NCBI RefSeq assembly: GCF_003688665.1
Contig: NZ_REFO01000016.1
Coordinates: 1 to 51,524 of the forward strand
Length of the DNA stretch: 51,524 nt
From: Hydrogenothermus marinus
GTDB taxonomy: Bacteria; Aquificota; Aquificia; Aquificales; Hydrogenothermaceae
Reading direction: 5' to 3'
The notes beneath the pieces were generated by a model. The model was not told the origin of the DNA. It made no database searches and worked only from the letters and a program-made list of their open reading frames with translations. The translations under genes were made by a program, and so were the position numbers. Position 1 is the first letter of the stretch. Each line of letters starts with the position of its first letter. Shown piece by piece: positions 719-51,524 of the stretch.

Positions 719-727
719 CCATTTTTA

Positions 728-756
728 TTGACTTTTTGATTAATTCAGTATATATT
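728..756 (+). promoter_or_regulatory. Promoter of tRNA(CAU) and the zinc-ribbon gene
   Basis: TTGACT at 728-733 and TATATT at 751-756 are separated by exactly 17 bases, which is a near-consensus housekeeping sigma-factor promoter. Transcription would begin about 20 bases before the tRNA at 786. The end of the IS copy at 718 lies only 9 bases upstream of the -35 box. Confidence 0.75.
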
Positions 757-785: not shown

Positions 786-862
786 GGGCCCGTAGCTCAG
801 TTGGTTAGAGCAGACGGCTCATAACCGTCAGGTCGGAGGTTCGAGTCCTCCCGGGCCCACCA
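786..862 (+). tRNA. tRNA with CAU anticodon (probable tRNA-Ile2, otherwise elongator tRNA-Met)
   Basis: A complete cloverleaf: acceptor stem GGGCCCG/CGGGCCC, D arm GCTC/GAGC, anticodon stem GACGG/CCGTC with loop CTCATAA, T arm GGAGG/CCTCC, and an encoded CCA end. The anticodon is CAU. It is not the initiator, which is at 35690-35766. The acceptor pairs C4-G69 and C5-G68 match determinants used by TilS, the lysidine synthase that converts tRNA-Ile2. As I recall it, the anticodon arm resembles that of Bacillus tRNA-Ile2. I therefore favour Ile2, but elongator Met cannot be excluded by eye. Confidence 0.95.
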
Positions 863-36546: not shown

Positions 36547-36622
36547 TGGCTCCGGAGGAGGGATTCGAACCCCCGACCCGGCGGTTAACAGCCGCCTGCT
36601 CTGCCTGCTGAGCTACTCCGGA
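36547..36622 (-). tRNA. tRNA-Asn (anticodon GTT)
   Basis: Acceptor TCCGGAG/CTCCGGA, D arm GCTC/GAGC, anticodon stem GGCGG/CCGCC with loop CTGTTAA (anticodon GTT), T arm GGGGG/CCCTC with a mismatch, discriminator G, CCA encoded. It is followed by ppa on the same strand. Confidence 0.96.
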
Positions 36623-36644: not shown

Positions 36645-36673
36645 AATATATCATCAAATATGAAATCTGTCAA
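36645..36673 (-). promoter_or_regulatory. Promoter of tRNA-Asn and ppa
   Basis: TTGACA (36673-36668) and TATATT (36650-36645) are 17 bases apart on the minus strand. The left end of the IS1-like element at 36689 lies 15 bases upstream of the -35 box. Confidence 0.8.
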
Positions 36674-36739
36674 CAATGATTAAAAAAGGGTATTCAGTTT
36701 TAGAGTTGATGTATAATAAAAATAAAAAAGGTTAAGAAA

Positions 36740-37057
36740 ATGAGATGTGTTTACTGTAATTCAGAAAAAGTAGTAAAAAATGGAAAATCAAATCAAGGAA
36801 AACAAAGATATTTATGTAAAAGTTGTAAAAGAATATTTGTAGAAAATCCAGAAAGAAGGCATTATCCAAAAAAATTAAAAGACATGGCTATTAAACTATA
36901 TACAGATGGAGTATCTATAGCAGCAATATCTAGGTCTTTAGAAGTACCTTATGAAACCGTTAGAAGTTGGATAAGAGCAGCAGGAGAACTTGCAATTAAG
37001 AAGCTTGAAGCAAGAAAAAATATATTAATTAAAAAAAATTTAACAAAGCAGGATTAG
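36740..37057 (+). CDS. IS1-family InsA-like protein
   Basis: 105 aa. N-terminal zinc finger (C-x2-C ... C-x2-C: MRCVYC and LCKSCKR) and a helix-turn-helix (about 50-80, DGVSIAAISRSLEVPYETVR). IS1 InsA binds the inverted repeats and represses the element. Near its end lies a run of eight As (37031-37038). A -1 slip there would read on as FNKAGLDKMWIWIVV into the next frame, making the fused transposase. The zero-frame product ends at TAG 37055. Confidence 0.85.
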   Translation: MRCVYCNSEKVVKNGKSNQGKQRYLCKSCKRIFVENPERRHYPKKLKDMAIKLYTDGVSIAAISRSLEVPYETVRSWIRAAGELAIKKLEARKNILIKKNLTKQD

Positions 37058-37062
37058 ATAAA

Positions 37063-37389
37063 ATGTGGATATGGATTGTAGTTTTTGACAAAGACTATAA
37101 ATATTTTGAAATAGGGAAAAGAGATGAAGAGACATTTTGGAAATTATTAAATCAAATTCCTACAGCTAAAGAATATCATACAGATGGATATAAGGTTTAT
37201 GAAAATTTGAGGAATAGAAAGAAAGGCAAATATAACTGTACTAATTGGAATGAAGGATTAAATTCGTTTTTAAGAAGTAAATTAGCTATGCTACAAAGAA
37301 AGACAAAAGCTTATGCAAAATCTATTAGAGCTTTATATAGGGCATTAGCCTTAGTTTTTATTAGATGGAATTTATTATATACTCTTTAA
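37063..37389 (+). CDS. IS1-family InsB-like catalytic part (read by -1 frameshift)
   Basis: 108 aa from its first ATG, but probably translated only as the second half of a frameshift fusion. TDGYKVY holds the second catalytic Asp and NWNEGLNSFLRSKLAMLQRKT the Glu region. The first Asp would be in LDKMW just upstream of the ATG. Compared with the usual LDEMW-x-VGKKK-x-WIW layout, about ten residues seem missing between LDKMW and IWIVV, so the copy may be inactive. Confidence 0.7.
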   Translation: MWIWIVVFDKDYKYFEIGKRDEETFWKLLNQIPTAKEYHTDGYKVYENLRNRKKGKYNCTNWNEGLNSFLRSKLAMLQRKTKAYAKSIRALYRALALVFIRWNLLYTL

Positions 37390-37410
37390 CTAAATACCAA
37401 ATTTTTATAA

Positions 37411-37439
37411 TTGCATACGAATATGTCATAACATAATAT
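37411..37439 (+). promoter_or_regulatory. Promoter of the dnaB operon
   Basis: TTGCAT (37411-37416) and TAATAT (37434-37439) are 17 bases apart, 13 bases beyond the IS1 right end. The predicted leader before dnaB is about 55 bases. Confidence 0.65.
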
Positions 37440-37500
37440 CCTTAAAAAACTCTGAAAAAATTATATAATTAAAATTCTAAAAAAGCCTGTGGAGAAAAAT

Positions 37501-50845: not shown

Positions 50846-50852
50846 ATTTTAA

Positions 50853-50926
50853 TGGGCGGTAGAGGATTCGAACCTCTGACCCCCTCCTTGTAAGGGAGGT
50901 GCTCTGGCCAACTGAGCTAACCGCCC
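50853..50926 (-). tRNA. tRNA-Val (anticodon TAC)
   Basis: Acceptor GGGCGGT/ACCGCCC, D arm GCTC/GAGC, anticodon stem CCTCC/GGAGG with loop CTTACAA (anticodon TAC), T arm AGAGG/CCTCT. CCA is not encoded. It is the first gene after the promoter at 50942. Confidence 0.96.
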
Positions 50927-50941
50927 AACAGCAGGATAAAT

Positions 50942-50970
50942 ATATTATTACATTCATTTTTATTTGTCAA
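50942..50970 (-). promoter_or_regulatory. Promoter of tRNA-Val, tRNA-Asp, iclR and dapE
   Basis: TTGACA (50970-50965) and TAATAT (50947-50942), 17 bases apart on the minus strand, form a near-perfect promoter. The end of the IS copy at 50981 lies 10 bases upstream of the -35 box. Confidence 0.8.
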
Positions 50971-50980
50971 GTTATTTTTA

Positions 50981-51524
50981 AAAGTGTTCTAAAAATATAG
51001 AGTCAGATGTAAAATAAGGTAAAAACTAAAAGTAGGGGGGGGAATAAAAATAAGAAGAACTAGATTGAAATTCAAAAAAATAATCAAAATAACTAAATCA
51101 ATACTAAGAGAAAAAAGCAAAAAAGAGAAAAAAGGGAAAGGAAGACCAAAAGAATATCCAGACTATTTAATTATATCATTATTTCTATACCAAATTCTAA
51201 AAGGATATTCATATAGAGAAGTATTAGAAGAAACAAAAGATATAATACAGAAATTACCATCATTATCTGTATATCATTATAGGGTAAAGACTTTGCCAAA
51301 AAGTTTATTACAAAAAATAATACACAAAACAGCAATAATCATAATAAAAAAGATAAAGAAAAAAGTTTCTTATCTTATAGCAGATGGAACAGGATTTAGT
51401 TTTGATGATATATACCCTAATTAAAGTTTATTCCTTTATAGCAGACAAAGGATTTGATAGTATTAAAATAATGGAAGATATAGCAAAATCAGGAGTAGAA
51501 TTAGATATTAGAGTAAAAGAAACA
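50981..51524 (+). mobile_element. IS element, right-end copy, internally deleted, cut by window edge
   Basis: Inverted copy of 1-718. It starts AAAGTGTTCT at 50981 and is nearly identical up to 51418, where 176 bases present in the left copy (107-282) are missing. It then continues to the window edge at the same base as the left copy. A run of eight Gs (51035-51042) replaces six. Confidence 0.85.
51065..51524 (+). pseudogene. IS transposase disrupted by a 176-base deletion
   Basis: From TTG 51065 the frame encodes 119 residues that match the left copy (GRPKEYPDYLI, IADGTGFSFDD), then stops at 51422 just after the deletion junction. Because 176 is not a multiple of three, the ADKGFDS region downstream is out of frame. 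The product keeps the presumed first catalytic Asp but loses the rest, so it cannot be an active transposase, though the ends of the element might still be moved by another copy. Confidence 0.85.

Follow-up and report, generated by a model that had tools for sequence, protein, structure and literature searches.

The window analysed here is the whole 51,524-nucleotide stretch NZ_REFO01000016.1 1-51,524, contig C16 of the 18 contigs in the 1.6 Mb genome of Hydrogenothermus marinus. Both of its ends (1-106 and 51419-51524) fall inside copies of an element assigned to the IS4/IS5 superfamily, here named IS A, and a single copy of an element assigned to the IS1 family, IS B, lies between them (Table 1). 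The predicted -35 box of tRNA-Met(CAU) is 8 bp from the end of the left IS A copy (score 11.6, offset 13 after GAACA), that of tRNA-Val is 9 bp from the end of the right copy at 50980 (score 11.2, offset 14 after GAACA) and that of tRNA-Asn is 15 bp from the IS B end at 36689 (score 12.1, offset 15). An initial annotation had noted that all three copies sit 9-15 bases from a tRNA -35 box; its distances of 9, 10 and 15 bases are right within one base, and its observation that two unrelated IS families share the arrangement holds for the IS1-type IS B and the IS4/IS5-superfamily IS A. The opposite end of IS B faces a weak promoter-like site, downstream of which dnaB has its GTG start at 37489. 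Around 30 bp of the DDE domain (window 36980-37090), kept in the copy on contig C10 and in relatives, are missing from the window copy of IS B, which is probably inactive given this loss.

Table 1. Features of the window that bear on the IS ends and the adjoining promoters.
Feature	Position	Strand	Details
IS A left copy, PF01609 transposase, truncated by contig end	1..719	-	outer TIR ATTTTTAGAACACTTTC ends at 719
Predicted sigma-A promoter of tRNA-Met(CAU)	728..756	+	-35 TTGACT 728-733, -10 TATATT 751-756
tRNA-Met (CAU)	786..862	+	ARAGORN
tRNA-Asn (GTT)	36547..36622	-	ARAGORN
Predicted tRNA-Asn promoter	36645..36673	-	-35 TTGACA 36673-36668, -10 TATATT 36650-36645
IS B, assigned to the IS1 family	36689..37398	+	TIRs GGTATTCAGTTTTAGAGT / ACTCTTTAACTAAATACC
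InsA-like frame in IS B	36740..37057	+	Zn_ribbon_InsA + HTH
InsB-like DDE frame of IS B	37063..37389	+	read as second frame
Weak promoter-like site, dnaB side of IS B	37411..37439	+	TTGCAT at offset 12, score 6.0
tRNA-Val (TAC)	50852..50927	-	ARAGORN
Predicted tRNA-Val promoter	50942..50970	-	-35 TTGACA 50970-50965, -10 TAATAT 50947-50942
IS A right copy, internally deleted form, truncated by contig end	50980..51524	+	

Further copies in the genome

Elsewhere in the H. marinus genome, an IS A copy at C10:502957-505190 adjoins the promoter of a tRNA-Lys-tRNA-Glu pair on one side and the 16S rRNA promoter on the other, and the copy at C13:55773-56567 faces the second tRNA-Lys-Glu promoter with its 3' end toward tRNA-Lys; protein genes are faced by IS A at C10:269.5-270.3 kb and by remnants at C10:76.3 and 110.8 kb. 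The IS B copy at C10:427.3-428.0 kb is flanked by divergent tRNA-Thr and tRNA-Gly promoters, with -35 boxes at 14 and 15 bp, and a 61-bp MITE of the IS B type (L049, C10:470.5 kb), bounded by the 8-bp target duplication TTTAATTA, lies between two divergent promoters that both have the -35 at 15 bp. That each transposase points away from the tRNA, as had been claimed, is true of all three window copies and does not extend to the C13 copy or to the C10 copy of IS B with tRNA promoters at both ends. Over this genome, a promoter at the exact offset was found at 5 of 6 IS B ends (shuffle mean 0.16) and 8 of 10 IS A ends (shuffle mean 0.40).

The H. marinus IS copies are partly degraded, and an IS256-family element with the 8-bp duplication CCTAATTT sits inside an IS A copy at C10:503108-504359 (L042:2309-3560). 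The tRNA-Lys-tRNA-Glu pair itself occurs twice (C10:502744-502897 and C13:56620-56773), preceded each time by the same IS A end at a nearly equal distance, and the two copies diverge directly after tRNA-Glu; the repeat looks like an IS-bounded duplication. The last approximately 94 bp of C10 overlap the beginning of C7, which indicates that C10 continues into the rRNA operon contig.

Assignment of the elements

Judged from its sequence features, IS B is an IS1-family element, having a zinc ribbon, an HTH, an IS1 DDE domain, two reading frames, 8-9 bp duplications, TIRs and a length matching the approximately 700-800 bp of that family. Zn_ribbon_InsA scores 34.2 bits (cut-off 26.1) in the window copy and DDE_Tnp_IS1 31.6 bits (cut-off 24.1) in the relative L124, both halves of which match NF033558, each under the full-length cut-off. 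Most two-ended copies are 710-753 bp long, with L176 at 662 bp and the MITE L049 at 61 bp, and target duplications of 8-9 bp are present at L049, L160, L162, L171, L173 and L174 and absent at several other IS B copies. An intact copy of this group, 76-77% identical, occurs in G009.

IS A can be placed at the level of the IS4/IS5 superfamily: its transposase matches DDE_Tnp_1 (PF01609) at 24.0 bits (cut-off 23) and is below both NCBIfam cut-offs, with 30.1 bits against the IS4 equivalog NF033592 (cut-off 115) and, for a 212-aa piece, 62.5 bits against NF033579 of the IS5 family proper (cut-off 140). The R-E-K spacing is present in the IS A reading frames, with the Y of the Y-R-E-K signature out of place. 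Where both flanks are intact the target duplications are 10-12 bp (ACCCGATGTTAC at L232, TCAAACGTTTG at L240, ACCTGCTCTA at L243 and TAATACCAATCT at L257), which agrees with the 10-13 bp of the IS4 family. The TIR pattern of IS A, GAGGCTGTTCTAAAAAT, is abundant in several genera of the order, a reversed-pattern control is absent from those genomes of the sister family f2, and relatives of the IS A transposase adjoin such TIRs in two genomes (G047 and G051). Transposase_mut was matched by neither the IS A nor the IS B transposase, and only by the separate IS256 element.

Distance between IS ends and promoters

The IS ends were aligned and the outside DNA was scanned at every offset from 0 to 59 for an outward sigma-70 promoter, a prediction from a general sigma-70 matrix that misses sites; shuffles preserved base composition only, and the unaffected offsets of the same flanks provided a second control. 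Counted from the IS end, the -35 box begins at a distance of 14-15 bp for IS B and of 8-10 bp for IS A (13-15 after GAACA). The 48 IS B flanks, drawn from 9 genomes, gave 8 promoters at offset 14 and 15 at offset 15 (null 0.5 each, shuffle maximum 2), and for IS A, 90 flanks across the order gave 9, 19 and 10 promoters at 13, 14 and 15 after GAACA (null approximately 1 each). Flanks with a promoter at the target offsets numbered 21/48 for IS B and 33/90 for IS A against 1-2 or so in the shuffles, in a set where some flanks are shared by descent (e.g. the orthologous L225 and L244), many genomes are fragmented MAGs and several copies have no target duplication, so that some flanks may have been rejoined by recombination. 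For neither element was there a comparable peak at any other offset between 0 and 59 or an excess at 18-59 bp, and in a by-group test of both sets of flanks inward-pointing promoters stayed at background level.

The same distances recur outside H. marinus. Compared with the promoter rate at 20-59 bp of the same flanks, IS B in other genomes (16/42, p 4e-16) and IS A in the sister family f2 (24/74, p 8e-21) are both strongly enriched; considered by themselves, the six IS A flanks of other Hydrogenothermaceae gave 1 match (p 0.2). In a hold-out of 9 additional IS B flanks, taken from a separate collection, TTG stood at offset exactly 15 in 5. About half of the IS B ends and 60% of the IS A ends had no promoter at the target offset, part of which is expected given that one promoter-facing end suffices and that the general matrix misses sites.

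It is the whole promoter that is enriched. After -35-like hexamers at the target offset, a -10 at 17-bp spacing is far commoner than after such hexamers at other positions of these flanks (p 2.7e-8 for IS B and 2e-7 for IS A). Where the -35 of an IS B flank is weak, the -10 position that fits best is 38, equal to 15+6+17. A bare TTGACA motif was rejected as the full account on this enrichment, direct reading of the -35 being retained as a rival. Intragenic IS insertions also have a -35-like box at the same offset; the intragenic copies L162 and L171 of IS B subfamily 2 have TTGA-like sites with a poor -10. Another subfamily-2 copy, L160 (G009:C30; also L288), interrupts a frame resembling iron superoxide dismutase at a cryptic promoter, TTGAAA-17-GATAAT at 14 bp.

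Two sets of other elements served as controls. IS256-family copies in the same hosts had a promoter at 8/45 flanks against a null of 6.4, with no peak, and E. coli IS1 had one at 1/28 flanks against 1.5, with no promoter preference; a further E. coli flank (L365), situated in an interrupted effector gene, was left out of this count. The former rejects a host-wide effect and the latter a general behaviour of IS1, and the preference therefore belongs to the IS A and IS B transposases and not to the hosts or to IS1 at large.

The tRNA link

In the relatives nearly all of the promoters at 8-10 and 14-15 bp belong to protein genes. The tRNA and rRNA share of promoter-positive flanks is 8/14 in H. 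marinus (7 tRNA and 1 rRNA, the two tRNA-Lys-Glu flanks possibly being one duplication and hence not fully independent) against 2/49 in the relatives (Fisher p 2.8e-5). A tRNA-specific target was rejected since the relatives' insertions face protein-gene promoters, and the tRNA pattern is a local excess over a general sigma-A promoter rule; promoter strength, or survival beside genes without upstream regulation, may have added this excess to the targeting. Targeting, one of the two alternatives offered at the outset, is supported by one sharp distance per family, including in the hold-out and the intragenic insertions, and loses its tRNA specificity, only 2 of the 49 promoter-positive flanks in relatives being at tRNA genes.

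Discussion

The comparison of flanks shows that the distance is fixed, that an entire promoter (-35, 17-bp spacer and -10) is preferred and that the pattern depends on transposase family. These results lead to the main reading, that the IS A and IS B transposases target sites immediately upstream of sigma-A promoters (probability about 0.9). Under the proposed rule, the element would insert behind a sigma-A promoter that points away from it, either IS end may face the promoter, and the promoter is left intact. IS B, with its 8-9 bp duplication, would join approximately 14-15 bp upstream of the -35; IS A, with a duplication of 10-12 bp, would join 8-10 bp upstream, and given this distance its duplication would just reach the -35 box.

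The other alternative offered at the outset was selection alone, in which insertion is random and the survivors are those that spare genes and promoters in a compact genome. The tRNA and rRNA excess in H. marinus is consistent with it, and as the copies there are partly degraded survival may have shaped which targets are left. However, selection predicts a broad range of tolerated distances, whereas the peaks span 2-3 bp and nothing above expectation is seen at 18-59 bp, where harm should be equally low; the -35-like box is also found at the same offset in intragenic insertions, and IS256 copies in the same genomes have no peak, so that selection by itself is scarcely credible. It is likewise highly unlikely that the IS ends were retained as upstream activating sequences: the geometry suggests that these AT-rich ends land in the UP-element region, but the benefit would need to apply to two families whose ends differ and to many unrelated genes. 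Negative supercoiling, which the initial annotation put forward as the basis of targeting, or open DNA in the region behind strongly firing promoters would attract any transposon, and two unrelated transposase families do share the pattern and tRNA and rRNA promoters are over-represented in H. marinus. Nevertheless, a host-wide attraction of this kind is improbable: it cannot account for fixed distances of 8-10 and 14-15 bp that differ between the two elements, or for the null result with IS256, a third family present in those hosts, and most targets in the relatives are ordinary protein-gene promoters.

A more serious rival, though still a tentative one, is that the transposases read promoter DNA directly, through the -35 TTGA(CA) and perhaps an AT-rich bend or the shape of an UP element, with no part played by RNA polymerase. 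Some intragenic IS B insertions with duplications have TTGAAA or TTGAAT at 14-15 bp and a poor -10, as this reading would have it, and the InsA-like HTH of IS B weakly resembles sigma-70 region 4 (E 0.0013, short of the Pfam cut-off). Against it, the -10 is independently enriched at the exact 17-bp spacing, for IS B even where the -35 is weak, and this calls for a reader of the whole promoter. Given the whole-promoter enrichment, polymerase-bound DNA is favoured over direct reading of the -35, and it is suggested that the transpososome may be guided by the promoter-bound RNA polymerase holoenzyme, through sigma region 4 or the alpha C-terminal domain at -40 to -60. Guidance by polymerase, as has been proposed for TnGBS, is given roughly an even chance. 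This raises the possibility, which we hold to be evenly balanced, that targeting of RNA-polymerase-bound sigma-A promoters arose independently in at least three DDE lineages (Mutator-, IS1- and IS4/5-type) through direct polymerase contacts of differing geometry.

A preference for sites upstream of promoters has been described in Mutator-type elements as atypical for prokaryotic transposable elements (PMC3942029); the TnGBS conjugative transposons and the ISLre2 family (Mutator-type, p-MULT 3) insert at a fixed 15-17 bp upstream of the sigma-A -35 (PMC3942029). IS A and IS B resemble them in the fixed distance upstream of a sigma-A -35 and in an intergenic safe-site strategy, and differ in that TnGBS and ISLre2 have a Mutator-type DDE transposase and a fixed end, IRr, facing the promoter, whereas either end of IS A or IS B may do so; the two elements act like the Mutator-type group in their fixed distance and are not members of it. 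The ISKra4 group (p-MULT 4) resembles IS A and IS B in that elements whose TIRs are near-perfect have promoters on either side (PMC3942029); its transposase is unrelated to those of IS A and IS B. E. coli IS1 is similar to IS B in the InsA zinc ribbon, HTH, IS1 DDE domain, two frames and 8-9 bp duplications, and differs in its lack of promoter preference (28 flanks). Among retroelements, Ty3, Ty1 and the Dictyostelium TRE elements land just upstream of tRNA genes by contact with the transcription machinery of RNA polymerase III. These are retroelements of the RNA polymerase III system, whereas IS A and IS B are found at bacterial sigma-A promoters of any gene; if polymerase contact does direct them, it would parallel, in bacteria, the tethering of Ty3 to RNA polymerase III factors. 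Ty3 tethering is itself cited in the study of the Mutator-type elements (PMC3942029).

Promoter-upstream targeting is thus known for Mutator-type elements, and the IS1-type and IS4/5-type cases seem undescribed: no prior report of promoter targeting by the IS1 or IS4/IS5 families was found in the open-access literature searched, an older subscription report being possible. Two further unrelated transposase families within one order make promoter-upstream targeting a recurrent strategy, and their two distances are available for mechanistic comparison. The natural contrast within the IS1 family, with E. coli IS1 showing no preference, offers a route to the residues responsible, and the IS ends in these genomes of thermophilic Aquificales can be used as markers of active promoters.

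Elements with IS A-type ends and a TnpB-like gene

In G098 and G099, a gene for a TnpB-like RNA-guided nuclease is present in elements of approximately 1640 bp whose TIRs are of the IS A type and whose target duplication is 10-12 bp. In L243 (G099:C12), the sole copy of these elements that was read, no DDE transposase was found, and the TnpB-like gene (L243:341-1912) encodes 523 aa with matches to TIGR01766 and NF040570. MITEs of approximately 290 bp with the same TIRs accompany these elements, and TnpB seems to be carried by an element that a DDE transposase mobilises.
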